From positions 1 to 41,362 of IMG/VR virus record IMGVR_UViG_3300027852_000080: a stretch of 41,362 nucleotides of DNA; one strand, given 5' to 3'. Positions 3,972 through 38,931 of the stretch are shown here, one piece after another; position 1 is the stretch's first letter; the number at the start of each line of letters is the position of its first letter. The stretch comes from a virus. Both the position numbers and the translations under genes were made by a program. The notes beneath the pieces were generated by a model, which saw nothing but the letters and a program-made list of their open reading frames with translations, was not told the DNA's origin and did not search any database.

Positions 3972-4022
3972 ATGTATACCGTATTAACAAACACCAACCG
4001 CCCCGCGAGGCTGACGCTATGA
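3972..4022 (+). CDS. Possible 16-aa leader peptide before portal
   Basis: An ATG at 3972 with a plausible ribosome binding site (AAGAGGTGA, 3955-3963) opens a 16-codon frame whose TGA overlaps the portal ATG at 4019 as ATGA. The binding site sits in the loop of a small inverted repeat (TTTATC/GATAAA). The portal start itself has only a weak site (GCGAGG), so translation of this mini-frame could deliver ribosomes to it. It may equally be chance. Confidence 0.3.
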   Translation: MYTVLTNTNRPARLTL

Positions 4023-6487
4023 TGGATAGAGATGGATTGCTGGCGGAAGACCCAGAAGACTTAGACAGCGTTGAAGCGACTGCCGACGGCGCTCTCTTTC
4101 TCTACCAGGGGCACGAAGAGGAAGCACTGGAGGAGGCCATCGCTGAAGAACAGCTTGAAGCCGAAGCCCCCGTGGAGTTCTACGAGAACCTTGCAGAGAC
4201 GATGCTTGAAGAGGAGCTAACCTCCCTTGCCTCTGACTTACTGGAATCCATTGAATATGACATAGAGTCCCGTAAACAGTGGAGCGGGGTTATCGCAGAC
4301 GGTATCGCTAATTTGGGGTTAACCCCCGATGCTCCGGTTGAAGATTTTGAGAACGCCTGCACCGCGACGTACCCACTGGTATCGCAAGCAATGGTGCAGT
4401 TTAACGCTCGAACCATGGACGAGATATACCCTCCGAAGGGGCCAGTGAAGGCGCTGGTAGTGGGAGCCAAGACCGAGGAAAAACGCAAACAGGCTACCCG
4501 TGTAGCGGACTACATGAACTACCAAGTCACTGAAGAAAACAGGGATTGGTACTCCGAAGATGACCAGATGACCTGGTGGCTTGGGTTTGAGGGTTCTGCT
4601 TTCAAGTGCGTGCATCGAGACGAGGTTAAGGGGGTTAATACCTCGCGGTTTGTGAGAGCGGTGGATTTCATAGTTCCTTACAAAGCTACAGACTTGGCCA
4701 CGACACCCCGATTTGCTGAACGCCTGAAACACCAGGATGCCTTGACCATGAGGCAGCAGATGGAAGCGGGTGTTTACCGGCAGGTGGAATTGGGGCAACC
4801 GGCGAACGCAGAGTCGAGCGAAGTGGATGACGAGATTTCCGGAATGGAAGGTGCGGAGGAGTCGGTACCTGAGGAGGACTTGGAGTTCACCGTCTATAAA
4901 GCGCACGCGTACCTAAAGCTGGAAGGCGACGAACAGGATTTACCCTACCTCGTGTACCTCGAAGGAGAGACAGAGCAGGTGTTGGGGATTTACCGAGATT
5001 GGTCTGAGGGGGATGAGACCTACCAACGAGAAGAGTCCTACGTCCACTTTAAACTGGTTCCGGGGTTTGGGTTTTACGGATTGGGGTATCTCCACATGCT
5101 GGGCAATATCGGCGTAGCAGCAACCGAGTCTATGCGATACCTAATTAACGCGGGGTATTTCGCCTCAGCACAAGGGGGCTTTGCGTCCAGAGATGCGTTC
5201 CCTGACGGCGTGTCGGTTTCCATTAAACCGGGGGTCTACGAAGCAACAGATGCCACCGCCGAAGAATTGTCTAAGGCGTTTTTCACGCCAAATTTTAAAG
5301 ACCCTTCCGTTGCCTTGTTCCAGACATTGGAGCTTTTAGTCCAGTCAGGGAAGGAGTTCGCTTCTATCACTGAAGCGATGACAGGGCAGGCCGCTCCTAC
5401 GGGTCCGGTCGGCACCATGGTGGCTTTAATCGAACAGGGGTCGAAGGTTTACTCTGGCATACATAAGCGGGTCCACCAGGCCAAGCGCCGAGAATATAGT
5501 ATTTTGTTTCGACTAAACGGAGAGCACATCCCTGAGGATGGGTACCCGTATAGGGAAGACGACGAAGACGCGCAGGTGTATGCGGCGGATTTCAACGGGA
5601 AGGTGGGGATTTTCCCCGTATCAGATCCAAACATAATCTCAGCCCAGCAACGGGTAGCTCAAGCTAATGCGGCCTTGGAATTAGAGAAACAGGCCCCACA
5701 TTTATACGATACAAAAGAAGTGCATCGGCGGGTGCTGGAAGCCCTACGAATGCCTGAGATTGAAGGTATTTTGATAGACACGGATTCAGCAGAGCCGAGG
5801 GACCAAGTAACTGAAAATGTGATGATGATGATGGGTAAGCCTACCAAGGTTTATGAGTGGCAGGACCACGCGAGCCACATCGCCGTTTTGGATGCTTTTC
5901 TGATGAGTCCGCAGGTACAACAAGTGCCGTTAGAAACCCAACAGGTGTTGAAAGTCATATTTGATGCCCATAAGCTGGAGCACTTGGCCTTGATGTACAG
6001 GCAACAGGTGTCCGAGGCGATAGGAGGTTTGCCTCCGGTAGACATTTACGCGGATGAGTCAGAGAGTGGAAGTGCTCCTCTGGATCCGATGATGGAGCGC
6101 CAGATAACGGCGATGGCCGCACAGGTGGTGTCGCAGCAAGGCGCACAAAGGGCTATGGAGCCACCTAAGACCCCTGAGCAGGTCGAAGCTGAAACGGAGC
6201 AACTGGAGATGCGAGCCGAGCAGGAGCGGAAGGACGCAGAAGCTATGACCGCTGATGGGAGAGAGCAAGCTAAGTTCGAGTCGAGCGAGAAACGTAAAGA
6301 ACTGGAGCACCAGAATAAGTTGAGACGTGATGGGGAGATGCACGACCACGAACTATCAAAGAAAGCCGAGGAAAACGCGGTGGACATCGCTCACAAAAAA
6401 GACCAAGAAGCTTTGGACCTGAAACAGCGGATTAGGGAGTCCGTACAGGCTAAGCTAAAGCCCACTAGAAAGGAGACAAATGGATAA
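4019..6487 (+). CDS. Portal protein
   Basis: This 822-residue protein is the probable portal, the ring at one capsid vertex through which DNA enters and leaves and to which the tail adaptors bind. Evidence is its position directly after the large terminase, its size, and sequence features I associate with P22-like portals: the YPLVSQAMVQFNARTMDEIY helix near residue 125 followed by PPKGPVKALVVG, and an extended central alpha/beta core. The N-terminus is very acidic. Residues about 691-822 are a long, highly charged, probably coiled-coil tail, comparable in place to the P22 portal barrel. Two ATG codons begin the frame; either may be used. The stop overlaps the next gene. Confidence 0.85.
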   Translation: MMDRDGLLAEDPEDLDSVEATADGALFLYQGHEEEALEEAIAEEQLEAEAPVEFYENLAETMLEEELTSLASDLLESIEYDIESRKQWSGVIADGIANLGLTPDAPVEDFENACTATYPLVSQAMVQFNARTMDEIYPPKGPVKALVVGAKTEEKRKQATRVADYMNYQVTEENRDWYSEDDQMTWWLGFEGSAFKCVHRDEVKGVNTSRFVRAVDFIVPYKATDLATTPRFAERLKHQDALTMRQQMEAGVYRQVELGQPANAESSEVDDEISGMEGAEESVPEEDLEFTVYKAHAYLKLEGDEQDLPYLVYLEGETEQVLGIYRDWSEGDETYQREESYVHFKLVPGFGFYGLGYLHMLGNIGVAATESMRYLINAGYFASAQGGFASRDAFPDGVSVSIKPGVYEATDATAEELSKAFFTPNFKDPSVALFQTLELLVQSGKEFASITEAMTGQAAPTGPVGTMVALIEQGSKVYSGIHKRVHQAKRREYSILFRLNGEHIPEDGYPYREDDEDAQVYAADFNGKVGIFPVSDPNIISAQQRVAQANAALELEKQAPHLYDTKEVHRRVLEALRMPEIEGILIDTDSAEPRDQVTENVMMMMGKPTKVYEWQDHASHIAVLDAFLMSPQVQQVPLETQQVLKVIFDAHKLEHLALMYRQQVSEAIGGLPPVDIYADESESGSAPLDPMMERQITAMAAQVVSQQGAQRAMEPPKTPEQVEAETEQLEMRAEQERKDAEAMTADGREQAKFESSEKRKELEHQNKLRRDGEMHDHELSKKAEENAVDIAHKKDQEALDLKQRIRESVQAKLKPTRKETNG

Positions 6488-6908
6488 GATAGCCCCGACA
6501 CTGAAAGATAAAGACCGGAAGTTGCAGGATGTTGTTGTAATGATTGATGACGTAATGCACCCCGATGCGTATCACCTTGAAGATAAATACGACGAGGGAA
6601 CGCCCCCTAAGCCGGATACCATCCCGTGGCTTCACGACTTGTGCTTGGATAAACGCCTCAAGTTGTGGGTGTTCAGCACTACGCTGAAAGAAGAGGGAGG
6701 GCTGATGGTTCGCGCGGATATAATCCGAAAATGGTTAATAGGCCACGGTTTTCCGGCGAAAGACATAACGCAAGTGGGCTTCACCCAAGAACTGACAGGT
6801 AACGCCCTTTACTTGGGGAAAAACATGTACTGGGTGTGTAACCGAAATCACTTAGCCAGTCCAGGGGCTTTAGTGCACCTGACGAGGAGTAACCACCGTG
6901 CGAGCTAA
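6480..6908 (+). CDS. Degenerate HAD-like protein
   Basis: This 142-residue protein has the layout of small phage HAD-superfamily proteins: a first strand VVVMIDD (residues 18-24), a spacer with a proline-led helix, a second strand KLWVFSTTL (about 61-69) with the small hydroxyl residues of motif II, and a helix RKWLIGHGFP. The HAD nucleophile is the first Asp of DxD; here that place is Met, and the terminal acidic motif is replaced by YLGKNMYW. It is therefore probably catalytically dead, perhaps a structural or nucleotide-sensing protein. It has a good AAGGAG site and overlaps the portal stop by eight bases. The HAD call is by eye and moderate. Confidence 0.5.
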   Translation: MDKIAPTLKDKDRKLQDVVVMIDDVMHPDAYHLEDKYDEGTPPKPDTIPWLHDLCLDKRLKLWVFSTTLKEEGGLMVRADIIRKWLIGHGFPAKDITQVGFTQELTGNALYLGKNMYWVCNRNHLASPGALVHLTRSNHRAS

Positions 6909-7050: not shown

Positions 7051-7264
7051 CAACGTAGAAGTCCGACGGGCGAGAGCTTTCCTTCGGAGAAGAGGAGTCC
7101 CCTCGCGGGTCATGCCTCCTCGGAAATTTGCGGAAGCTGCGGAGCAGACAGGTAAAACGTTCAGCCAGTTACTCCGTATGACTGCCCGACTGATGATGGG
7201 TGGGCAAGGACAAGGGCAAGCGAAAGAAGCGAGGCAGATTGCCACGCAGAGACAGTTATCATGA
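7040..7264 (+). CDS. Hypothetical small protein, 74 aa
   Basis: The ATG at 7040 follows a G-rich stretch and the stop overlaps the next start as ATGA. The product has a basic N-terminal half (EVRRARAFLRRRGVPSRV), a likely helical middle and a Gly/Gln-rich tail. Its order within a run of tightly coupled small genes between portal and co-chaperonin suggests a head assembly or DNA-binding accessory, but no family is recognised. Confidence 0.65.
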   Translation: MAINNVEVRRARAFLRRRGVPSRVMPPRKFAEAAEQTGKTFSQLLRMTARLMMGGQGQGQAKEARQIATQRQLS

Positions 7265-7473
7265 TTGAGGTATTAGACACCCTAAGGCACCAACTTGAGA
7301 AGGTCTTGAGGGCTAACGAGCGTAAGATGGTCTCCGAAACAGATTTATCGGGGGTGGGTCCAATCGCCAAAAAACAAGGACGCGTCCTTGGTGTGGAGGA
7401 TGCTATCCGAGAGCTGGATAAACTGAGAGACCGAATGCGCGATGGCGAAGAAATAGACGACGATTTAACTTAA
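7261..7473 (+). CDS. Hypothetical coiled-coil protein, 70 aa
   Basis: This 70-residue protein begins with an ATGA overlap. It is almost entirely charged and helical, with heptad-like leucines in the first 20 residues and again in ELDKLRDRMRD near the end, separated by a GVGPIAKKQGRVLGV loop. A helical-hairpin oligomeriser is a reasonable picture. Small proteins of this build are common near phage scaffold genes, but I cannot name the family. Confidence 0.65.
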   Translation: MIEVLDTLRHQLEKVLRANERKMVSETDLSGVGPIAKKQGRVLGVEDAIRELDKLRDRMRDGEEIDDDLT

Positions 7474-7489
7474 ATAAAGAGGAGAAGCA

Positions 7490-7978
7490 ATGACTGACAT
7501 ACAGTGGGAAGCGCATACAGCGACAACTGATTTTTCGGAAACTAACCCCGTGCAAGACATGCTGGCCGAACGAGGGCCGGACATGATCAAGGCGACAGAA
7601 GCCGCCGAAAAGCAGATAGGGGGTGCGGAATGCCCTGTGAAGGTGCAGACGTGGAACCTGTTGCTGATGCCTCTACAGGCACCAAAAGAAACGCGAAGCG
7701 GGATAATCTTGTCGGACACCACAGTAAATGCGATGGAGCATAACAATTACGTGGCTAAGATAATCAAGATGGGGCCGATGGCTTTTACCGTAGACCGGAT
7801 ACGGTGTGAGGATCGCGAAGTGGATGCAGACAACATCCCCAAAGTAGGGGATTGGGTTGTGGTCAGCCGATTATCGGGGCAACGGATCAACTACAAAGGG
7901 GTGCGAATGAACGTATGCACCGATGACTCTGTTATTTTGGTGGTGGAAAACCCAACCGCCTGCTACGTGATGGTTTAA
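7490..7978 (+). CDS. GroES-like co-chaperonin
   Basis: This 162-residue protein matches the GroES (Cpn10) layout: a strand WNLLLMPLQAPKET (about 55-68) equivalent to the N-terminal strand and the lead into the mobile loop, a hydrophobic SGIILSD segment like the GroES GIVL tripeptide that docks on GroEL, then IPKVGDWVVV and YKGVRMNVCTDDSVILVVE matching the late strands. It carries about 50 extra N-terminal residues. Phage co-chaperonins such as T4 gp31 replace GroES so that host GroEL can fold the capsid protein; the place upstream of scaffold and capsid genes suits that. The start has a clear GAGGAG site. The family call is by eye but the order of motifs is good. Confidence 0.75.
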   Translation: MTDIQWEAHTATTDFSETNPVQDMLAERGPDMIKATEAAEKQIGGAECPVKVQTWNLLLMPLQAPKETRSGIILSDTTVNAMEHNNYVAKIIKMGPMAFTVDRIRCEDREVDADNIPKVGDWVVVSRLSGQRINYKGVRMNVCTDDSVILVVENPTACYVMV

Positions 7979-7990
7979 GGAGAGGATGAG

Positions 7991-9013
7991 ATGAGTATTG
8001 ACACACCAGAAAGAGACGAGGGTTTTGGGAATTTGGAAGACTTAGGTGATGGCGACCTGGAATCACAAGAAGAATTTGAGGACTTACACCCCGCCGAAGA
8101 AATGGCAGACGAAGTAGGACTCCCTGTGGACGGGGGCAGCGATGACTTGGGCGCGGAGGAGTTTGAACTGGGGGAGGAGGAACCTGACCCAGAGGAAGGG
8201 GAGGAGGAACCTGACCCAGAGGAAGGGGAGGAGGAACCTGAAGAAGAACTTGAGATGGCGGACGATACCGCCCAGCAGATTGCACAGCAGACTATTGCTG
8301 ATTTGGAAAACCAGTTAAGGGAGGCTACCCAGACTAACCAAACCCTGATGAACGACCGAGTGTCTACCGAGTTAACTCAAGTTACGTCAGAAATCGACAG
8401 CCTCCAAAAAGACTTGGTAGCCGCTATAGAGGAAGGAGATGCTAAAACCCAAGCGGAAGTCCACGTCAAAGTGACCTCTGCAACCGCTCGAAAAGCACAA
8501 CTGGAGCAGTATAAACCGGACGCACCTTCCGCTCCAACCCCACAGAAAGCGCCAGCCCCTGGTGGGCATGTGGTCAGCCGGTATCCTAAAGCTAATGAGT
8601 ATCTTGCGATAAACACCTGGGTTGGATCGCCCACGCATGGTCCGCAAACACAAACCCTGCAAACCATAGACAGGGCGTTGATGGCTGAGGGTTTTCACCC
8701 CAGCACGGATGAGTATTACGTGGAACTGGCGAGTAGAATGGACCGGAGGTACCCTGGATTGATGAAACTTAAAACGGCGAAAAGCGCACCTGTGAAGGAG
8801 AAGAAAGCCAAGAAAGCCGCCACCAAACCGGTGTTGTCTGCGGACAGAGGGCGAGTATCCCGAAAAACCAAGAAACGCCAGAAAACCACGTTGATGGAGG
8901 AGGACCGGGAAGTGATGCTGAAATTCGGATTAGACCCCCGAAATCCAGAACACCGAACGTCGTTTCTGAAGAACAAACACGAACGCTTACGCAGCGAAAC
9001 ACAACGAGCTTGA
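7991..9013 (+). CDS. Putative scaffold protein
   Basis: This 340-residue protein lies three genes before the capsid gene. The first 90 residues are extremely acidic and include tandem copies of EEPDPEEGE. Residues about 95-175 are a coiled coil (QQTIADLENQLREATQTN and following). A proline-rich linker comes next, then a small folded part, and the last 80 residues are very basic (KEKKAKKAATK). A charged rod with a basic C-terminal capsid-binding end is the usual build of phage scaffolds, which shape the procapsid and then leave. An in-frame ATG after the acidic part (about 8253) could give a shorter form. The start has AGGAGAGG upstream. Confidence 0.65.
   Translation: MSIDTPERDEGFGNLEDLGDGDLESQEEFEDLHPAEEMADEVGLPVDGGSDDLGAEEFELGEEEPDPEEGEEEPDPEEGEEEPEEELEMADDTAQQIAQQTIADLENQLREATQTNQTLMNDRVSTELTQVTSEIDSLQKDLVAAIEEGDAKTQAEVHVKVTSATARKAQLEQYKPDAPSAPTPQKAPAPGGHVVSRYPKANEYLAINTWVGSPTHGPQTQTLQTIDRALMAEGFHPSTDEYYVELASRMDRRYPGLMKLKTAKSAPVKEKKAKKAATKPVLSADRGRVSRKTKKRQKTTLMEEDREVMLKFGLDPRNPEHRTSFLKNKHERLRSETQRA
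8174..8241 (+). repeat. 27-base tandem repeat in scaffold gene
   Basis: Two identical 27-base units lie at 8174-8200 and 8201-8227, with a partial third to 8241. The repeat keeps the frame and encodes nine acidic and proline residues (EEEPDPEEG) each time. It probably arises by slippage and changes only the length of the acidic tail. Confidence 0.9.
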
Positions 9014-9023
9014 GGACCACACT

Positions 9024-9644
9024 ATGCAACCTAATGAATTTGATGCTATGATGAAGACACAAGGAAATGCCCAGGAGCCGACACAAAGCGTGGCAGCTAC
9101 GACTCCTGTTGATAAAGCTAACGCGACATGCGCGCCGGAGGTAGCCGCCCAAGACGGGCCGATACACCCTGCCGTAGACAGCGTACAACATTCTTCTCCG
9201 GTACACGCCGAGGTTGGACGACCCGTAAGATGGGTGCAGCCTAACCTGTTGGATGCCCCCCCTCCAAGGCCGGGCTACGTGGATCGCTGGGTATGGGTTG
9301 GGTTTGACACTGAAGCCCAAAGCAACATATCTACGCGACAAAGGGAAGGGTGGAGTCCCCGCGATCCGAATACCGTCCCCCAAGGATTCACATCTTTGGC
9401 TGGCAAAGACGGACGTTCTGGGACCATAACGGTACAAGGAATGTGCTTGATGGAAATGCCTGAAGAAGTTAATGCTCAAAGAACAGCGTTCTACGAGCAG
9501 AAGCAAGGGGAAATCGAAACTGCGGTTCAAGCGGAACTCGATGGCACCCAAGCAGAAGGCGGACTAGCCATCCAGCGCATGTCCAAGACCTCAGTGGTAA
9601 CAGGTGGAGGTAGAAAACCAACAGTCCTACCAGACAGAGGTTAA
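9024..9644 (+). CDS. Hypothetical capsid-cluster protein, 206 aa
   Basis: This protein has a polar, probably disordered first 65 residues, then a conserved-looking core that includes RPGYVDRWVWVGFD (about 90-103), REGWSPRD and a later GMCLMEMPEEV segment, followed by a helix and a polar tail. I recall similar small proteins of unknown role next to capsid genes in other phages, but cannot name the family. Its position between the scaffold and decoration candidates makes a virion or assembly role likely. The start lies eleven bases after the previous stop, with a weak site (GAGGA). Confidence 0.65.
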   Translation: MQPNEFDAMMKTQGNAQEPTQSVAATTPVDKANATCAPEVAAQDGPIHPAVDSVQHSSPVHAEVGRPVRWVQPNLLDAPPPRPGYVDRWVWVGFDTEAQSNISTRQREGWSPRDPNTVPQGFTSLAGKDGRSGTITVQGMCLMEMPEEVNAQRTAFYEQKQGEIETAVQAELDGTQAEGGLAIQRMSKTSVVTGGGRKPTVLPDRG

Positions 9645-9679: not shown

Positions 9680-10243
9680 ATGGCAAATCTTGATAACCCG
9701 AATGGGTTCTCTGTGGACAAGCACGTAGGAGGTGGGTGTAGCCGGTTGTCTGAGATGACAATCGACCCAGCTTATGCAGTAAAGCTCCACGTAGGAGACC
9801 CTGTTAAAAGTTCTGGAACGGGCCGGAACATTATAAAGGCGGGTGCGAGCGACGCTATCCGTGGTATTTTCCAAGGATGCAGCTACACGGCTGTCGATGG
9901 ATCAGTGGTATTCGCAAACGTATGGCCAGGCGCAAACCAAGCTAGAGTAGGCACCGAACCAGTGGCGAATATTTCCGCAGAAGACCCAGCACAAGAATTG
10001 TTGGTTCAGGTTAGTGGGGATTTCCAACCAGCAAATGTTGGCGATCTCGCAAATCTCACCGCAGGCACCGGCAATGACTTGACGGGCCGCAGTGGAGCGG
10101 AGATTGATTCAGCAACTTTAGGGTCAGGAGCTGCATATAAAATTGTGGGTCTTGCACCGATACCAGGCAACAGTTACGGCACGAATGCTCAGGTTCTCGC
10201 ACTAGCGGCGAAACATGAACTACGTGGCGGCACTATCGCATAA
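9680..10243 (+). CDS. Putative capsid decoration (cement) protein
   Basis: This 187-residue protein is directly upstream of the capsid gene and is rich in Gly, Ala, Val and Asn, with a beta-strand pattern and no membrane segment. Its start has GGAGAAG upstream. Small beta-rich proteins in this place commonly coat and stabilise the mature head. The DIRGIF-type turn (ASDAIRGIFQGCSYT, about 56-70) and the LLVQVSGDF strand fit such a fold, but the assignment depends mainly on position. Confidence 0.55.
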   Translation: MANLDNPNGFSVDKHVGGGCSRLSEMTIDPAYAVKLHVGDPVKSSGTGRNIIKAGASDAIRGIFQGCSYTAVDGSVVFANVWPGANQARVGTEPVANISAEDPAQELLVQVSGDFQPANVGDLANLTAGTGNDLTGRSGAEIDSATLGSGAAYKIVGLAPIPGNSYGTNAQVLALAAKHELRGGTIA

Positions 10244-10255
10244 CGGGAGAATATT

Positions 10256-11173
10256 ATGGGTACTATGAATAGGGCTTTATTCCCTAAACAGTTGCAAGAC
10301 GGGCTGAATACGATATTTGGGTTGGAGTACAAACGCTATCCAGAAGAATGGCGAGCGTGTTTCGACGTGGAAAACAGTAACAAAGCATACGAGGAAGACG
10401 TGCTGGTGGTCGGCTTGGGTCCAGCTCAAGTTAAACCCGAAGGCGGTCCAGTAGCGAAAGACGAAGGCGGAGAATCTTGGGTTTCCAGATACCGCAATGA
10501 GACAATCGCATTGGCTTTCGCGTTGACACAAGAAGCGGAAGAAGACAATCTTTACGGCCAATTGGGTGCCAAGTATAGTCGAGCATTGGCTCGGTCTATG
10601 CAGCACACTAAGGAAGTGAAGGGGGCCTCTATATATAATAACGGTTTCGATGCGGCCCACCCAGGCGGCGACGGTGTGCCTTTATTTTCTACCGCACATC
10701 CTTTGTGGAACGGCGGCGTATTGTCTAATATGTTACCAACACCAGCGGATTTATCGGAAACGGCGTTGGAAGATGCCATGATCCGTATTTCCCTGTTCAC
10801 CGATGATCGAGGTATCCCGACGATGCACCAGGCGCGTAAGCTGCTTGTCCATCCATCGAATACCTTTGAGGCTTCACGTATTTTGAAGTCTACGGGTCGG
10901 GTAGGAACGTCGGATAATGACAACAACGCGTTGAAGACTGAAGGGTACTTGGGTGGCGGTGTGGCAGTTAATCACCGTTTCACTGACCCAGATGCGTGGT
11001 TTGTGCGAACAGATTGTCCTGACGGTCTGAAACACAAGAAACGTATCGCGTTGAAACGCGGTATCGAAGGCGACTTCGAGACAGGCAACATGCGGTATAA
11101 AGCGCGTGAGCGGTACACGTTTGGCCATACTGACTACCGAGGAGCCTTTGGTTCTCAAGGTGGCGGCAGCTAA
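10256..11173 (+). CDS. Major capsid protein (Mu gpT-like type)
   Basis: This 305-residue protein is the best candidate for the main shell subunit. Residues 143-149 read LFSTAHP, followed by GGVLSN, a signature I associate with Mu gpT-like major head proteins, and the protein has the helix then beta-hinge then P-domain-like order of HK97-fold subunits: ETIALAFALTQEAEEDNLYG near 82-101 and the repeated mid-protein helix before residue 135. A strong terminator follows directly, as is usual for a highly expressed gene. The start has GGGAG upstream. No protease cleavage site or protease gene was recognised nearby. Confidence 0.85.
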   Translation: MGTMNRALFPKQLQDGLNTIFGLEYKRYPEEWRACFDVENSNKAYEEDVLVVGLGPAQVKPEGGPVAKDEGGESWVSRYRNETIALAFALTQEAEEDNLYGQLGAKYSRALARSMQHTKEVKGASIYNNGFDAAHPGGDGVPLFSTAHPLWNGGVLSNMLPTPADLSETALEDAMIRISLFTDDRGIPTMHQARKLLVHPSNTFEASRILKSTGRVGTSDNDNNALKTEGYLGGGVAVNHRFTDPDAWFVRTDCPDGLKHKKRIALKRGIEGDFETGNMRYKARERYTFGHTDYRGAFGSQGGGS

Positions 11174-11306: not shown

Positions 11307-11459
11307 ATGCGCTCGAAACTCAAAGCCATTATCGAGGCTTCAAAACCTAAACAGAAAGAGGCTTCAAAACCTAAACAGAAAGAGGCTTCAAAGCCTAAAC
11401 AGAAAGAGGCTTCAAAGCCTAAACAGAAAGAGGCTTCAAAACCCACGAAAACTAAATAA
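11307..11459 (+). CDS. Lys-rich octapeptide-repeat protein, 50 aa
   Basis: This short gene starts with ATG behind AGGGGA and encodes a ten-residue lead (MRSKLKAIIE), four perfect copies of the octapeptide ASKPKQKE and a final ASKPTKTK. The product is very basic, has no hydrophobic core and is probably disordered, resembling histone H1-tail-like or Ala/Lys/Pro-rich DNA-coating peptides. It is the first gene after the capsid terminator and promoter candidate, so strong expression is possible. Packaged DNA condensation or binding to an acidic partner are possible roles; neither is shown. The good site and the in-frame repeats argue that it is translated. Confidence 0.65.
   Translation: MRSKLKAIIEASKPKQKEASKPKQKEASKPKQKEASKPKQKEASKPTKTK
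11337..11432 (+). repeat. 24-base tandem repeat, four copies
   Basis: Four 24-base units lie at 11337-11360, 11361-11384, 11385-11408 and 11409-11432, with a fifth partial unit beyond. They differ only in a wobble base of one Lys codon (AAA or AAG). Each encodes ASKPKQKE. The near identity suggests recent expansion by slippage or unequal exchange. Confidence 0.95.
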
Positions 11460-30945: not shown

Positions 30946-33900
30946 ATGGGGGACAAGTCTTTTGCAGATGAAATCTGGGGTTCGCTACCCAGCGACGACT
31001 CCCCACCTGAAACGCAAACCTCTGGAGGGAGCAGTTTTGCCGATGAGATTTGGGGGACGTTGCCCGAAGCAGACCCACTCACGCCTACGGAATTAGAACC
31101 CCAACTCGAAGAAGAGCCTGACCCCGTTCTGGCGGGTTCGGATAACGAAACCTCTTTAGGGGGTCATTTCGCACGGGGGGTAGACCAGTTACAGGGGTTC
31201 GGGTATTCCGCACTCGAAGCGGCGGGAGAGGGACTTGAGTTAGAAGGTCTCACCGATTTCGGACGTGAGGGGCGTGAACGCAACATCGACGAAGCGGCGG
31301 AAAATCCCCCATCCCAATCCTTCTCAGACGCAAACTCCGCAGGAGACTACGCTACGTGGGCCAAAGAAACATTCGTGTCTCAGGCACCCCTAATGGCCCC
31401 ATCTTTAGCTGGTGCTGGAGCTGGAGCCGTAGTGGGCGCACCTCTTGGCCCGATTGGAGCCACAGTGGGCGGTGTCGTAGGGGCTTTAGTGCCGTCACTG
31501 GTGCTGGGCGCGGGAGAGGTCCAACAGAAAATCAAAGAGAAAGACCCTGAAGCCTCAGCCCCCTCCCTTGTTTTCGGCGCGGGAGCCACAATCGCGGCCC
31601 TAGACTCAGCATTTCCAGGGAAAATGGGGTCTTTTCTAGTCAAGAAGCTGGGGACAGACATCGCTGAGGAAGTGGTCAAAAAAGCACTCAGTAAACGACT
31701 CGCAACCGAAGTGCCCTTGAACATGACAATGGAAGGGACGACGGAAATCGTACAAAGCGCCATATCTGAAGCGGCTGCGTCCTCCGCCACAGGTGCCCCC
31801 ATCGACTGGGCGGAGTGGAAAGCCGGAGCGGTTGAGGAGTTCGCGGCAGGAGCCTTGATGGGTGGCAGCATCACTACGGCGGCAGAGGTGTACGCTGCGA
31901 AAAAAGGCGCGTCAACCCCTCCTGAAGGAGACACCCCACCCTCTGAAAGGGAGTCAAGGGTTTCTTCCGTTGTGGAGAACCACCCTGCGGTGAAAGAAAT
32001 CCAAGACCCCGCCCAACAGCAAGCGGTTGTTGAAGCGATTAAGGCCATGGCCTCCGAGGATGGAGTGCTTGCTCGGATAGACTCAGTGTTAGCTGAGGAA
32101 GGAGGGTCTGATGTTGCTCGGTCAGAGGTAGATGTTTACCTTTCAGAGTATATACGGGACGCTGTTTCCGAGGTGGCCCAAGACACGGCACCGCCTAAAG
32201 GTGAACCGGTGCCCGATACCACGTCTTTCGGCCTTAACGAAGAGTTTCCTGAAGCAGTGGCCGCCGCACAAAAAGAAAACCTCACTCCCGAGAACGCTGA
32301 ATCTTTAGCCGCCCAAATGGACGCGTTTGAATCTGGGCGCAAACCCGCAGTGTTAATCACTGAAGGGGAGCCGATGCCTGTGATTCCTGAAGGGGCTAAA
32401 GTCGAAGAGATTCCTGGCCGAGGGCAACTCATCTACCGAGATGAGCAGACCCTTGAAGCGGCAAAGAATAACAAAATGGGTGAAGCCCTTGGTTTAGGCA
32501 TTGATGAAAAACCGATGACTGACCAAGTGGTGACAGCCCGAAATTCTGAAGGGGTGGTGGTTACAGATACCGCCACAGACGGTCGTCCTGAAGTCGTTAA
32601 CGCCGCAGGAGTTTTAGCGGGGGAAGGCGGGACTGTAGAGCACCGGACGGTAGACGAAGCTTTGTCCGAGCGAACCCAAGGTGCCGAGGGGGGGAGTTTC
32701 CAATCCACCGTGATGGCTGATTTAGAAAGAGAAATAGTGAGAGGGCAGTACGCGCCAGTTTCGGATATTAGGGGAGAGGCTGCCCCTGAAACTGCACCGG
32801 TTACGGATAAAGCGACCTATGACGAAGTTCAACAGGAAATAGACGATCTGACAGACGCATTGGAGAGAAAATATGGGGATGGCTTTATTACGGAGAACTT
32901 GAACTACGACGTTGCCCAAGCTTTAGGCAAACCTCACCAACTGCCTGAGGGGTACGATACCTCAGATTTAGACCGGCTATCTTCGTTACAGGACAAACTA
33001 AATGGTATCGGCGACAAAGAACTCGCCGAATTCAAAAGACGTGTTGTTAAGGATTCGGGGTTGCCGGAACCCCTCGCGACAGCGGCGTTAAAGGTGATGG
33101 GTGTGAGGGATTCCTACCCTTTCGCGATGAAGAACCTGAGAGGTTTAGGAACCTCTGTCCCGCAAACTCTGACAGATCTATACAACTTTTTCGATTCCAG
33201 AAAAGCAAAATCCCCCGCAGGTACTTCGCTAGATAGGGTTTACGCTAAATTTTACTGGGGTGGGACTGGAGAAAACCCCGCGCTAATGGCTTCGTTCACT
33301 CACGATTCAGGAAAAAAAATCGCTGCCGACAGTGAAATCCTGACATCTGTCGAGAGAATAGCGAACGCCGTTTATTCGGCTCGGGGTGAAGAACCAATCG
33401 ACTTGTCTAAAACTACGTCTAAACCTAAAAAACTTGACAAGAGTTTAGACGTTAAAACCCCCATAGATATTGCAGCACACGAAGCGGCGACTAGCCCTAC
33501 AAACGCCAAACCGCAGCCTTCCGAAGCTCAAATAGAAGCGGGAAACTACAAAAAAGGTGACGTGAAGGCTTTTGGTCTCGACATCGCAGTGGAGAACCCT
33601 AAAGGATCTACCCGATCAGGGGTTGACACAAAAGGGAAGCCGTGGGAGACCACGATGCAGCACCACTATGGGTACGTTAAGCGGAGCAAAGGGGCTGACG
33701 GGGACGCAGTGGACGTTTTCATCGGGCCTAAAGAGCAGAGCAATAAAGCATTTATCGTTGACCAGAAAAACGAAAACGGCAAAGGGTTCGACGAGCATAA
33801 GGTTATCTTAGGTGCTGAGTCCCAGGTGGAAGCCGAGAAGATCTACGACTCCAACTATGCCCCAGACTGGAAAGGCCGTGGCGCGACCACCGAAGTTACT

Positions 33901-36900
33901 ACTGACCAACTGAAGGAGTGGGTGGCTAAGGGCGACCTCACCAAACCGGCAAAAGGCCAGTTGAATAAAACCAGAGAGCGAGTCTCCGCTGGGGATAAAG
34001 TGGTAGACCTTGACCCTTTTTTGAAAAAGAGCAAGCCCTCCGCGAAACCCGCACCTTCGGACAAACCGAAAACCGTAGGCCGTAAGCCAGCCGCACCTGG
34101 CCGCAGCACGGTGACTGACGTACATGAAAAAGTGAATGCGGTAAAGGGGATGCAAAAACTGCTAGACAACGGTGAAATAGTAATCGTGCAGTCCGCGAAA
34201 GACTTGCCAAAGAAACTCGCAGGGGATGCACAGGGGGTGTACGACCCAGAAACAGGAAAAACCTATCTAGTTGCTGATGCTCTGAAACCAAACCAGGTGC
34301 AGAGCGTGCTGTTGCACGAGATGACCCACCGAATGTTTATGCAAAACCCTGACGTGCAAGCCCAAATGGTGGGTGAGGTAGGGGAGTTCTCGGTGATCAT
34401 GAGCAAGATTGAACGGGGGGACCTGAAGGGGCCTTACAAGCGGGTGTTTGATGCCGCGATGTCCCGCATCCCAGAAAACACCCCGCAGGCGGACAGGGTG
34501 GAGGAATTCGCAGCCTACGTTGTCTCGGAGTTCAACAGCGGGGCAACACTTCCCGCCCACCTAGCTGCATGGGCCAAACGCGTTATGGCTAAAATAAAAG
34601 CAGGTTTAGCGGCGGTAGGTATGCCTTTGAAAGGGATTTCTCCTGCGGATTTAGACCTCGCGGTACGAAGAACAATTGCACAGAAAGAACCGGCGAACCC
34701 GCACCTCAAGCGAGAACGCGCTTTGTACTCCAAGGCTAAAGACGACCGAAGACGCCACTGGTACAAGAGACCCGCTGGGATGTCTGACATCGACCAGATT
34801 CGGGACAAAGCCCTGTGGACAAAAGCTAAACTGTTGGGCCGTAAGTGGCTGACCCCTGAAGGGAATTTGGACGCAAAAGTGTACCAATTAAATACACTGA
34901 GGCAGGGTGACAATGTTGCTGAGGATTTGGAGGCGAAATTCCTGTTAAAGGGTTTTGACAAAGCGGTGAGGGGTGCGTACAAACACACCCTGAAAAGTAA
35001 ACTGTCTGTTTTGGACAAAGCGACCCGTCGAAAATTATCGGATGCGCTGAAGGTGCCTGACATGGCAGACATGGACCCATCAATTCCAGATTCAGTCAAA
35101 GTCCACCTCCTCGCCATGAGGCAGCACGTAGATAAACTGTCGATGATGTACGTGGACTTAGTGAGAGAGGAGGCGGTGTTGGGGCTTCAGTCAGGAACCC
35201 CCGCACTGCGACGAGCGGTACTCGGCGCTCGATTAATTGCAGAAAACAGCGAAGCCGTGGACGCGCACAACTCCGAGGCAAAAGCCTCTGGCAAAGACCA
35301 ACCGCAGCGCCGGAAAACCCCGAAGGCGATCCACGAGAGAACAAAAAAGGAAGTCTCTGAGTTAATGGATAGCTCCGAGGACCCTCGAACCCTGTATAAA
35401 GAAGCGGCTGACATCGCCCGTAAGCTTGGCACCATCGATACCATCACGCACAATGCCGGAAGGTACGTGCTCCGATCATACCGGATGTACGAGGACGGGG
35501 GTCTGTGGTTGAAGAAGATGCCAGCTAAAGTGAAAAAAACAGCGGCTGATTTTGTTCGCAGCGAAATGCTGGAGCACAACGACAAAGCCGCTGGGTGGCC
35601 TGCGGAAAAACTAGAAAACGAGGTGCGTAAGGCCCTCGAAAACCTGATACCCGACAAAGCTCGAGGGGGCGACTCGGTTGCGTCTATGATTATGGCCCCG
35701 AAAATGGGCGTAGATATGCAGCACATCCTCACTCGGCGAAAAGACATCCCTGTAGAAATCAGGGAATATCTAGGTGAGTACCATGACGCAGCGTACAACT
35801 ACGCACACACCGTTGAAAAGGTGGCACACCTCGCCACCTCAAAACAGTTTTTCAATGAAGTGGAGAAAATGGGTGTCGGGGAATTCCTGTTCAAGGACGA
35901 AGACCGCCCTTCGGGAGCGACCACCTCTCTCGGGGGCGAGAAAAATCAGTCCATCGGTGCTCTTGCGGGGTATTACACCTTTCCTGAGGTAGCTGAGGCT
36001 TTCACGGAGCACATGAGACCGGTGGACCTTGACGGAATTTTAGGAGCCTTAGTCCAATTTAACTCACTGGCCAAAATCAATATGACGGTGTATAACCCGC
36101 CCACGTCGTCTCGAAACTTCATATCCGCTGGCGGTTTCGCCCTGATGAACGGCCACCTGCGCCCCAGTAAAATTAAGCACGCCGTTAAGATGGGTATGTC
36201 TATGCTGGGTGCTGGGGGGAAGGAAGCCAAAGATTACCGGAAAGAGTTATCAAGGTTGCGGGTGATTGGGGACGGCGTTCGAGCGGGGGAGGTCGCACAA
36301 ACGTTTAGAGACGCTAAGGTTTACTCTTTGGCTAATGACGAAATAGGGGAATCCACGGCAACGATTGCGTCTAACGCAGGCCGCACCTTAATCCGAAAAT
36401 TTAAAGGTGTTTTTGAAGGCATTTACTTGTTTGGGGACGACTTTTGGAAAGTTATCGGTTTCGAGGCAACGGTTTCGGACTTGATTAAATATAAAGGTTT
36501 AACTCGGGAAGAGGCTGCACCCATCGCAGCAAACCAAATTAGAAACACGTACCCAACATATTCAATGGTGGGCCGAGGCCCGAAAACGTTGGCCAGGTTT
36601 CCTGGGATGGGTATGTTCGTCAGTTTCCCGGCGGAGGTATTACGAACGTCGCCTAACATCGTCAGACAGGTGGGGCACGACTGGTCCAATGACATGAAGA
36701 TTCCCGCCGCCAAACGAGCCACAGGGATCTTCGTCATGACAGCGGGTCTCGCGGCAATGGTGACTATCGCTCGAAACCTGATGGGGTACGACGACGAGGA
36801 CGATGAGGCCGCTCGGGTTCTCGGTCCTGAATGGATGAAGAACTCCACCCTAATGTTCTTGCCCCGAGATGAGGAAGGCAACATGCGGTACTGGGACGTG

Positions 36901-38058
36901 TCGAACACGTATGCGTATAACTACTACACCCGCCCACTGATGGCTTTGCTCAGAGACCAACCTTTCGGCACCCGGTTGGCAGAAGCGTCTAAGTCGCTTG
37001 TCACTCCTTTTCTGGGAGAAGAGGCAGGCTTCAAGGTGCTTCGTGAGGTAGGCACCAACCGCAACGAGTGGGGGCAAAAAATTTACTATGAAACAGACCC
37101 AACACCGGGGTCCACGGTAGGGCCTGCGACCAAACACATCTTCGACGGAATGAAGCCTGGATTCCTGAAATCACAGGACCGGCTGGCAAAAGGTGCCGAA
37201 CAGTACATCTCTGGGTCAGGCAAGCAATATTCTCTGTCCGACGAAATCTGGTCGTTCTTCGGTTTCCGGATGACAACGGTAAATCCTAAAGTGGCGCTAT
37301 TCTATAAAGCGTATGCTCTGTCGGATGCCAAAAGGGATGCCACCCAGTTGATGAAACGGGTCGCAGCCAAAGATATGAACGATGTCCCTGAAGCGGATAT
37401 TCGCAGTGCATGGATTAACGCAAACGCCATTGTCTATAAGGCACACCAAGACTTACAGACAGCCATACGCGCTTCAGAGAAGCTGGGCTTGTCCAAAAAA
37501 GACAAAGATTGGGTTCTCTCGGATAAAACCATGAAAGGCGCGATGAAAGCCTCGGGCCTCAGTGCAGATGCGTATGAGATAATACGATCCAAGGGTATCA
37601 GTAAAGCGGACATGGCGGCACTGGATAGCGGGGAAATCCCGATATGGACTCCCTCAGACCGCTTCTTTGATGGGATGCTCAGTAAGATCCATTTGATTAT
37701 CTCCGATGAAGAGTTACAAAAGACCATCGAAGGCCGATTGAGTGGCCGGGAAGAGTACATGCAAGACCTGCAACAGGAATTCGAGGACTCAATCGAATCC
37801 AAGAGGCAGCAACAGTTGCTGGATGAAAACGGGCTGTCGGTACCCGACACAGAGGGTCTCGACTCTGGCGAGGACCTGTCTTCGGTATTGTCTGGAAATG
37901 ACCCAGAAAAAATAACCGCCTATTTATCTGAGAACCAAGTGCCAAAAGATGATATTATTCGAGCAACCAAGGAAATCTCGCCAGCGTGGGCAGACATGTT
38001 AGCGCAAGCCCCGCCGGATTCAGTGACACTACTGAAGCACGCTGGCGTTTTGAGTTAA
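30946..38058 (+). CDS. Giant ejected polyvalent protein, 2370 aa
   Basis: The N-terminus holds two copies of SFADEIWG (residues 5-12 and 30-37), then a Gly/Ala-rich hydrophobic region (about 146-191) that could insert into membranes. Residues about 857-1003 resemble the pyrophosphatase-like domain (InPase type) of phage polyvalent proteins, with HYGYVKRSKGADGDAVDVF at 907-925 and Asp918/920/923. Residues about 1090-1220 form a zincin-like peptidase with HEMTH at 1124-1128 and a Glu in EEFAA (1186-1190) as probable third ligand. The last 1000 residues, including a hydrophobic span near 1925-1948, resemble large polyvalent-protein-associated regions. It is probably ejected into the cell with the DNA. 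The start follows the previous TAG directly; no Shine-Dalgarno is seen. Confidence 0.85.
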   Translation: MGDKSFADEIWGSLPSDDSPPETQTSGGSSFADEIWGTLPEADPLTPTELEPQLEEEPDPVLAGSDNETSLGGHFARGVDQLQGFGYSALEAAGEGLELEGLTDFGREGRERNIDEAAENPPSQSFSDANSAGDYATWAKETFVSQAPLMAPSLAGAGAGAVVGAPLGPIGATVGGVVGALVPSLVLGAGEVQQKIKEKDPEASAPSLVFGAGATIAALDSAFPGKMGSFLVKKLGTDIAEEVVKKALSKRLATEVPLNMTMEGTTEIVQSAISEAAASSATGAPIDWAEWKAGAVEEFAAGALMGGSITTAAEVYAAKKGASTPPEGDTPPSERESRVSSVVENHPAVKEIQDPAQQQAVVEAIKAMASEDGVLARIDSVLAEEGGSDVARSEVDVYLSEYIRDAVSEVAQDTAPPKGEPVPDTTSFGLNEEFPEAVAAAQKENLTPENAESLAAQMDAFESGRKPAVLITEGEPMPVIPEGAKVEEIPGRGQLIYRDEQTLEAAKNNKMGEALGLGIDEKPMTDQVVTARNSEGVVVTDTATDGRPEVVNAAGVLAGEGGTVEHRTVDEALSERTQGAEGGSFQSTVMADLEREIVRGQYAPVSDIRGEAAPETAPVTDKATYDEVQQEIDDLTDALERKYGDGFITENLNYDVAQALGKPHQLPEGYDTSDLDRLSSLQDKLNGIGDKELAEFKRRVVKDSGLPEPLATAALKVMGVRDSYPFAMKNLRGLGTSVPQTLTDLYNFFDSRKAKSPAGTSLDRVYAKFYWGGTGENPALMASFTHDSGKKIAADSEILTSVERIANAVYSARGEEPIDLSKTTSKPKKLDKSLDVKTPIDIAAHEAATSPTNAKPQPSEAQIEAGNYKKGDVKAFGLDIAVENPKGSTRSGVDTKGKPWETTMQHHYGYVKRSKGADGDAVDVFIGPKEQSNKAFIVDQKNENGKGFDEHKVILGAESQVEAEKIYDSNYAPDWKGRGATTEVTTDQLKEWVAKGDLTKPAKGQLNKTRERVSAGDKVVDLDPFLKKSKPSAKPAPSDKPKTVGRKPAAPGRSTVTDVHEKVNAVKGMQKLLDNGEIVIVQSAKDLPKKLAGDAQGVYDPETGKTYLVADALKPNQVQSVLLHEMTHRMFMQNPDVQAQMVGEVGEFSVIMSKIERGDLKGPYKRVFDAAMSRIPENTPQADRVEEFAAYVVSEFNSGATLPAHLAAWAKRVMAKIKAGLAAVGMPLKGISPADLDLAVRRTIAQKEPANPHLKRERALYSKAKDDRRRHWYKRPAGMSDIDQIRDKALWTKAKLLGRKWLTPEGNLDAKVYQLNTLRQGDNVAEDLEAKFLLKGFDKAVRGAYKHTLKSKLSVLDKATRRKLSDALKVPDMADMDPSIPDSVKVHLLAMRQHVDKLSMMYVDLVREEAVLGLQSGTPALRRAVLGARLIAENSEAVDAHNSEAKASGKDQPQRRKTPKAIHERTKKEVSELMDSSEDPRTLYKEAADIARKLGTIDTITHNAGRYVLRSYRMYEDGGLWLKKMPAKVKKTAADFVRSEMLEHNDKAAGWPAEKLENEVRKALENLIPDKARGGDSVASMIMAPKMGVDMQHILTRRKDIPVEIREYLGEYHDAAYNYAHTVEKVAHLATSKQFFNEVEKMGVGEFLFKDEDRPSGATTSLGGEKNQSIGALAGYYTFPEVAEAFTEHMRPVDLDGILGALVQFNSLAKINMTVYNPPTSSRNFISAGGFALMNGHLRPSKIKHAVKMGMSMLGAGGKEAKDYRKELSRLRVIGDGVRAGEVAQTFRDAKVYSLANDEIGESTATIASNAGRTLIRKFKGVFEGIYLFGDDFWKVIGFEATVSDLIKYKGLTREEAAPIAANQIRNTYPTYSMVGRGPKTLARFPGMGMFVSFPAEVLRTSPNIVRQVGHDWSNDMKIPAAKRATGIFVMTAGLAAMVTIARNLMGYDDEDDEAARVLGPEWMKNSTLMFLPRDEEGNMRYWDVSNTYAYNYYTRPLMALLRDQPFGTRLAEASKSLVTPFLGEEAGFKVLREVGTNRNEWGQKIYYETDPTPGSTVGPATKHIFDGMKPGFLKSQDRLAKGAEQYISGSGKQYSLSDEIWSFFGFRMTTVNPKVALFYKAYALSDAKRDATQLMKRVAAKDMNDVPEADIRSAWINANAIVYKAHQDLQTAIRASEKLGLSKKDKDWVLSDKTMKGAMKASGLSADAYEIIRSKGISKADMAALDSGEIPIWTPSDRFFDGMLSKIHLIISDEELQKTIEGRLSGREEYMQDLQQEFEDSIESKRQQQLLDENGLSVPDTEGLDSGEDLSSVLSGNDPEKITAYLSENQVPKDDIIRATKEISPAWADMLAQAPPDSVTLLKHAGVLS

Positions 38059-38070
38059 GAGGAAAATACA

Positions 38071-38931
38071 ATGGTATACACACCAACTCAGTGGCAGAAT
38101 AATCGCACCCCTGCTCTCAATGAGGCTAACCTAAACAAACTGGAGCAGGCCGTAGCCGCCAATGACGTGGCCGTTACCGGTAAAGCGGCACTAAACCACC
38201 AACACACCACTTCGGACATCCCGGATTTGGATGCCTACGGGCAAGCGGTGGTGGATTCTAAAGATGCAGCAACGCTTCAGTCGGCGCAGGACTTTACCTA
38301 CAGCCAAGCAGTGGTGGATTCTAAAGATGCAGCAACGCTTCAGTCGGCGCAGGACTTTACCTACAGCCAAGCAGTGGTGGATTCTAAAGATGCAGCAACA
38401 CTTCAATCGGCGCAGGACTTTACCTACAGCCAAGCAGTGGTTGACTCTAAAGATGCTGCGGTTTTAGGTGTTGCTAATACTGGAGTAGCAAATGCAGCGA
38501 CAGCACAAGCCGCAGCCGATGCCGCCCAATCAACCGCAGATAACGCAAAAGAATTCGACGCAGGAACCAGGATGGTTTTCTATCAAGCCGCCCCCGTGGG
38601 ATGGGTTCAAGTTCCAATTCCCGATTGGTCTATGCTCATGGCGGGGACTAGCGGCGGCGGCTGGACTGGAGGTGATACGCAGCCATTCACTCACGAGCAC
38701 ACCACGGGGGATTTCGCGTTAACTGAAGCCCACAACGGGCCACACGATCACCCGTACACAGCAAACCCCGAAAGTGGTACCAACAGTAACGCCGGTGGTT
38801 CTGACTTACCCAGAAACTTCAATGCAGCAAGCACAACAGGCTCGTCAGGTTCAGGAGTCCCACATAACCACGGTGAAACTTCAACCATTACAGCACAATA
38901 CGCAACGGTGTTGATATGTCAGAAGTCGTAA
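38071..38931 (+). CDS. Tail fibre with tandem repeats, 286 aa
   Basis: The N-terminal 55 residues are an attachment-type domain (YTPTQWQNNRTPALNEANLN). Residues 58-120 are three near-identical 21-residue units and part of a fourth (QAVVDSKDAATLQSAQDFTY), probably a trimeric coiled or beta stalk. The C-terminal 120 residues carry the DAGTRMVFYQAAPVGWVQVP strand and His pairs (HEH, HDH, HNH) followed by YATVLICQKS, the well known fibre-tip type domain. It starts with ATG behind AGAGGA. Its end overlaps the next gene. Confidence 0.85.
   Translation: MVYTPTQWQNNRTPALNEANLNKLEQAVAANDVAVTGKAALNHQHTTSDIPDLDAYGQAVVDSKDAATLQSAQDFTYSQAVVDSKDAATLQSAQDFTYSQAVVDSKDAATLQSAQDFTYSQAVVDSKDAAVLGVANTGVANAATAQAAADAAQSTADNAKEFDAGTRMVFYQAAPVGWVQVPIPDWSMLMAGTSGGGWTGGDTQPFTHEHTTGDFALTEAHNGPHDHPYTANPESGTNSNAGGSDLPRNFNAASTTGSSGSGVPHNHGETSTITAQYATVLICQKS
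38242..38430 (+). repeat. 63-base tandem repeat, three copies plus partial
   Basis: Units of 63 bases lie at 38242-38304, 38305-38367 and 38368-38430, with a shorter fourth beginning at 38431. They differ at only a few bases (first Ala codon, a Leu-Gln codon pair). The frame is kept and each unit encodes 21 residues of the fibre shaft. Copy number can change the shaft length. Confidence 0.95.

Follow-up and report, generated by a model that had tools for sequence, protein, structure and literature searches.

A GroES-type co-chaperonin gene with a lengthened mobile loop is closely linked to one capsid type in diverse phages

The question raised by this locus is whether an open reading frame (ORF) among the head genes of a virus encodes a co-chaperonin and, if so, whether that protein serves the folding of the capsid. 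The window (the whole stretch of 41,362 nucleotides analyzed here) carries at positions 7490 to 7978 an ORF of 162 amino acids (aa) with an ATG start; the ORF, its parts, and the head-cluster genes located below are all on the plus strand. A Shine-Dalgarno sequence, AGGAG, can be read at 7480 to 7484 (plus strand), 5 bases ahead of the ATG at 7490. PHROG 3188 ("co-chaperonin GroES") matched residues 52 to 153 with an E value of 6.7e-9, covering profile positions 5 to 95 of 96, and the GroES-like region as a whole spans about residues 49 to 153. The Pfam Cpn10 profile scored below its cutoff against the protein alone (E = 0.0087; 16.5 bits, with a cutoff of 21.1), so a single-sequence Pfam search would leave the protein unnamed. 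The best phage relatives found by tblastn were annotated co-chaperonins, namely, those of HTVC027P (1e-9), DSL-LC04 (3e-7), and CRP-902 (1e-6). Searches of the PDB with profiles of relatives gave the same family: a 12-relative profile reached co-chaperonins at 2.8e-22 (18 of 21 rows with E values up to 1), and a 40-row profile returned co-chaperonins in 18 of 18 rows with E values up to 0.1 (best, 1.2e-18), without any other beta-barrel family.

We modeled the protein with AlphaFold from a 40-row alignment (mean pLDDT, 84.7; pTM, 0.76), and the predicted structure has the GroES beta-barrel fold. When this model was searched against the PDB with Foldseek, the top 34 rows were all co-chaperonin chains or entries holding them (best E value, 1.2e-6). 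Comparisons with VIA gave a Z score of 9.9 for 8wuc_a (rmsd of 2.7 over 89), 8.3 for E. coli GroES 1aon_O (rmsd of 4.0 over 91), and 7.8 and 7.1 for the T4 gp31 structures 2cgt_O (rmsd of 1.8 over 71) and 1g31_A, respectively. An earlier note, made from the letters alone, had recognized a co-chaperonin here by the order of its elements, and the model reproduces that order: a first strand (residues 56 to 61), the tripeptide I72-I73-L74 within SGIILSD, and late barrel strands at residues 122 to 152 (positions 7853 to 7945). A relative, L031, was modeled as well (pLDDT, 81.5). Both models contain a helix in the arm that follows the tripeptide, and neither has a clear hairpin in the roof, where the pLDDT of the window model is only 65 in block 101 to 110. 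The PHROG match, the exclusive PDB profile matches, and the predicted fold confirm that the ORF encodes a Cpn10/GroES-type co-chaperonin.

Ahead of the barrel, the protein carries an N-terminal extension (residues 1 to 51; positions 7490 to 7642) with a net charge of −6 and helices predicted by the model at residues 20 to 27 and 29 to 43. The extra N-terminal region described in the earlier note is therefore present (about 50 residues before the barrel), but it is not common to the relatives. The start of the protein, MTDIQW, resembles that of several close relatives (pattern M[ST][DE][VI]x[FW], as in MTEVAF or MTDIAF), and the insert that follows it, with the two predicted helices, was found in no relative. 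Residues 1 to 51 had no other match in the two ORF sets searched, which argues against a shared domain, and we rejected a shared docking function for the extension on these grounds. The number of residues ahead of the first barrel strand ranged from 9 to 66 in 60 phage rows and from 9 to 11 in the 8 bacterial rows counted.

The mobile loop (residues 62 to 87; positions 7673 to 7750), delimited by the model and the alignment, includes a predicted helix at residues 76 to 84 and the hydrophobic tripeptide I72-I73-L74 (positions 7703 to 7711), which is the expected contact with GroEL. In the 40 aligned rows, the residue at position 72 was always hydrophobic (I in 33 rows, F in 5, and otherwise L or M), that at position 74 was L, I, Y, F, V, or M in 36 rows, and that at position 73 was freely variable. 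Of the 44 distinct co-chaperonins in the 80 loci, this alignment omits seven that were truncated or almost identical to others (L025, L040, L060, L068, L074, L089, and L092). The motif reads S70-G71-I72-I73-L74 in the window protein, and the pattern Gly-(Gly)-hydrophobic-x-hydrophobic is kept in most rows, with some exceptions. Retention of I-x-L and the preceding Gly is what would be expected of a GroEL contact, and the mobile loop proposed from the single sequence thus held up among the relatives.

Next to this conserved contact, the lengths of the surrounding segments differ from those of bacterial GroES. We counted the second arm of the loop from the first tripeptide residue to the Gly of the next strand (I72 to G95 in the window protein) and the roof segment from G95 to G120. 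For comparison, we used 37 bacterial proteins, which were the best Cpn10 matches and came mostly from one phylum (8 from provirus-bearing genomes and 29 from a 40-genome draw from one phylum). The C-terminal arm of the window protein (positions 7712 to 7753) is 4 residues longer than that of bacterial GroES (23 versus 19 steps). Of 60 phage proteins, 55 had an arm of 23 steps and the full range was 22 to 27, compared with 19 in 37/37 bacterial proteins, and the four-residue gap was also seen in all 7 PDB domains shown in the 40-row profile search. The arm before the tripeptide had 15 steps in both groups (46 of 60 phage rows and 36 of 37 bacterial rows). The roof segment (residues 96 to 119; positions 7775 to 7846) is likewise longer in the window protein (25 versus 18 steps); all 37 bacterial rows had 18 steps, and the phage proteins had 10 to 27, most commonly 24 (21/60). 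At the level of sequence, these lengths suggest that the geometry of the folding cage may be altered, as the earlier note had proposed, through a mobile loop longer by 4 residues and a roof most often longer by 5 or 6.

Some relatives depart from the common motif. WGF replaces GGI in five rows (L076, L080, L081, L082, and L086), and in L095 and L107 the first arm is much longer and the GGI signature is absent. Without GGI, the contact with GroEL in these proteins may differ or be lost; they may have a different GroEL partner, bind it differently, or not bind it at all. The WGF clade (L080, positions 5983 to 6501; L076, L081, L082, L086, and L089) also has a 64-residue N-terminal region and is still under purifying selection. 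The proteins of L095 (3531 to 3872) and L107 (3816 to 4163) are co-chaperonins encoded in the same place, with a first arm that is seven residues longer.

The gene resides in the head cluster, ahead of the capsid gene. Upstream lies a gene for a portal-like protein of 822 aa (4019 to 6487), identified by its position, which is that of the annotated portal in DSL-LC04 and Pag-Yong1; it had no Pfam or PHROG match, and the sole hit of a search with it was a fragment identical in sequence to the window. Directly 5' of the GroES gene is, by position, a gene for a small acidic protein of 70 aa (7261 to 7473). Several relatives also have a gene of about 60 to 70 aa directly ahead of GroES, and its product is a possible partner of the co-chaperonin. 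Three genes separate GroES from the capsid gene: one for an acidic protein of 340 aa with a pI of 4.6 (7991 to 9013), a probable scaffold judging from position and composition (weak match to PHROG 28737); one for a head-cluster protein of 206 aa (9024 to 9644; PHROG 36003; E = 3.4e-11); and one for a protein of 187 aa immediately 5' of the capsid gene (9680 to 10243). The last, by implication a decoration gene in the earlier note, had no Pfam or PHROG match that would confirm this role. The major capsid protein (10256 to 11173) has 305 aa and a mass of 33.5 kDa (Pfam Phage_capsid_4, 4.9e-11; PHROG 371, 3e-12).

Other features of the window include three tandem repeats. The probable scaffold gene contains 2.6 copies of a 27-base unit (8171 to 8241), giving a repeated acidic stretch; just 3' of the capsid gene are 4.6 copies of a 24-base unit (11334 to 11443), one frame of which reads EASKPKQK; and 3.5 copies of a 63-base unit (38234 to 38456) lie within a 286-aa frame (38071 to 38931). 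A protein of 2370 aa (30946 to 38058) matches virion structural, DarB-like, and endolysin PHROGs and is probably an ejected virion protein.

To follow the gene across relatives, we used the window capsid protein as bait and kept 80 viral contig loci of 594 confirmed. A GroES profile match was present in 49/80 kept loci and in all 48 of those with at least 2,600 bases 5' of the capsid match, always on the same strand and ending 2.17 to 2.52 kb upstream of that match. Two of the loci with no GroES match fell just short of the length limit (2,555 and 2,464 upstream bases). Bacterial genome contigs contributed 10 loci, with GroES in 8/8 of those with enough upstream sequence (L105 and L108 were too short) and the gene end 1.8 to 2.7 kb upstream of the capsid match. 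Among phage records with this capsid protein, 18 of 21 had GroES, 13 by annotated regions and 5 (MinM2, Pra-JY27, GB2A, RLK, and KcrB) by tblastn and capsid coordinates. The order of co-chaperonin, genes of about 280 to 350, 150 to 185, and 180 to 220 residues, and then capsid is shared by the window and ten named relatives (HTVC027P, CRP-901, CRP-902, DSL-LC04, 023Pt_psg01, HTVC023P, Pag-Yong1, Caulobacter phage RW, ct2G2228, and ct2os315). The linkage spans phages of very different hosts with podo-, sipho-, and myovirus labels. The co-chaperonin gene is thus shown to be tied, in a near-strict linkage, to one capsid type.

The exceptions are the records with the most diverged capsids (E values of about 1e-20 or weaker to the window capsid). 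No GroES match was found across the whole of MW202601 or BK063670, both of which keep the portal-to-capsid order; MW202604 has its capsid match at the coordinates of MW202601, and the whole-record search covered the other two. The BK063670 capsid protein led to the more distant MT836833, in which there was no GroES match in the 10,582 of 10,829 bases scanned. An association of GroES absence with archaeal hosts was considered and set aside, as a host is recorded for BK063670 alone (Methanomicrobiales), there is none for MW202601, and MT836833 comes from human feces.

A phage-borne GroEL was not found: there was no Cpn60/GroEL in the window or in the 21 related records, some of which may be fragments. 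All 8 provirus-bearing genomes had a Cpn60 match (over the cutoff in 7), and 7/8 had a second Cpn10 gene besides that of the phage. The window protein should therefore form its ring on the GroEL of the host. In a tree, the phage (n = 60) and bacterial (n = 37) co-chaperonins were split by one branch (support, 100/99). The window protein grouped on a long branch with L038, L102, L073, and L104 (97/97); the inner order of the tree is unsure, since only 104 columns were used, loop columns among them. Close pairs of relatives (22 of 23; the remaining pair was saturated) gave dN/dS values of 0.08 to 0.31, which indicate purifying selection on these proteins, including those of the WGF group.

Our preferred reading, which we consider likely, is that the gene supplies a virus-specific GroES, a rebuilt lid that caps host GroEL so that a head protein of the phage can fold inside; the likeliest client is the product of the major capsid gene a short distance downstream. 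We infer a heptamer, GroEL binding, the capsid protein as client, and a changed cage geometry. Seven copies would form a ring whose mobile loops grip GroEL, with I72-x-L74 as the contact, and the closed cage would fold the client. The 4 additional residues after the tripeptide and the larger roof segment would give a cage of different height or ceiling, or one that is gripped differently. With its extra length, the loop could lift the lid or hold it less tightly, alter the residence time of the client, or keep host GroES from competing. The major capsid protein is the simplest client, as its gene and the GroES gene have remained linked over large divergence. Against this, a 33.5-kDa protein should fit an ordinary cage, and the portal and scaffold genes are equally close, so linkage within the cluster is no proof of a capsid client.

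The small size of the capsid protein fits a co-chaperonin that partners host GroEL without being reserved for the capsid protein, either taking over the whole chaperonin late or adding to the supply of lids, its head-cluster site then serving timing only. It is also in line with the ability of gp31 to substitute for GroES with E. coli clients (PMC6318259). We nevertheless regard this as unlikely given the fixed place of the gene, its near-perfect tie to one capsid type across diverse hosts and virus morphology labels, and its absence from none but the records with the most diverged capsids. Still less probable is that the GroES fold has been reused in the virion (for the head lining, a vertex, or decoration) after loss of GroEL binding. 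The position of the gene, the changed loops in the WGF rows, L095, and L107, and the private N-terminal insert would suit such a role, whereas most rows keep the expected GroEL contact. The present evidence nearly excludes another GroES-like barrel, such as the one at the N terminus of MDR dehydrogenases, and a resemblance due to chance: MDR dehydrogenases did appear in the VIA comparison (Z scores of 4.2 to 5.7), but all rank under co-chaperonins, the profile searches reached co-chaperonins only, and the mobile loop is present.

Under the preferred reading of a virus-specific lid, its constant change beside one capsid type suggests that folding of the capsid protein requires a custom-made cage. 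A wider interpretation, which we offer tentatively and judge almost as probable as its opposite, is that one capsid lineage in very different hosts depends on its own lid and inherits the two as a unit. The loop would have been lengthened after, not before, the GroEL contact, by a route other than that of gp31, and together with the larger roof this would mean that phages have adapted the cage to a client on two or more occasions. In the few diverged members that lack the gene, among them one with a methanogen host, the capsid would fold in the absence of such a lid. Almost all genomes examined pair this small capsid protein with a lid of its own, and the loop of the lid is consistently altered; this raises the question of whether a lid can change the folding repertoire of GroEL by means other than volume. 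As related phages have been isolated on Caulobacter, Alcaligenes, Roseobacter, and Pelagibacter, this question is testable.

Phage GroES proteins as a kind are already known. The HTVC023P-type phages have 13 core genes, a co-chaperonin GroES gene among them (PMC9599517), and the map of CRP-901 labels a co-chaperonin GroES (PMC10149686). The proteins of HTVC023P-type pelagiphages (HTVC027P gp55 and HTVC023P gp36), CRP-901/902, and DSL-LC04 belong to the same family as the window protein (PHROG 3188), are encoded in the same place before the same capsid type, and have the same loop extension of 4 residues, but they are only about 20 to 27% identical to it, and their N-terminal regions are unlike. 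The open-license literature searched yielded no strict capsid-GroES linkage beyond the pelagiphage core-gene statement, no description of a lengthened arm, and no virion proteomics of relatives. The loop variant and the strict linkage to a capsid therefore appear to be undescribed in the literature searched.

T4 gp31 is the textbook phage-made lid, and the explanation given for it is that the capsid protein of T4 exceeds the capacity of the normal cage. The window protein resembles gp31 in its predicted fold and in having a lengthened mobile loop, but the arm involved differs: in the same alignment (a rough one for gp31, anchored by motifs), gp31 has 19 steps before the tripeptide, compared with 15 in bacteria, and 20 after it, whereas the window protein is extended after the tripeptide. 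The roof also differs, with 11 steps in gp31, 18 in bacterial GroES, and 25 here, so the roof-loop loss of the gp31 type is not seen. Gene 31 of T4 sits among nonhead genes, unlike the window gene in its head cluster. The literature describes gp31 as a phage lid that works with host GroEL for the capsid protein; it is 14% identical to GroES, has no roof loops, carries flexible loops of 22 residues rather than 16, and encloses a cage enlarged by 8%, and the T4 capsid protein gp23 has a mass of about 56 kDa (PMC6318259). With a capsid protein of only 33.5 kDa, the size rationale of gp31, on which the earlier note had drawn, does not carry over to the window, and an enlarged cage for a big client is unsupported by protein mass. 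Bacterial GroES (Cpn10; PF00166) shares with the window protein the barrel, the mobile loop, and a GGI-type motif, but it lies on the other side of the tree, has a shorter loop and roof, and lacks the N-terminal extension.
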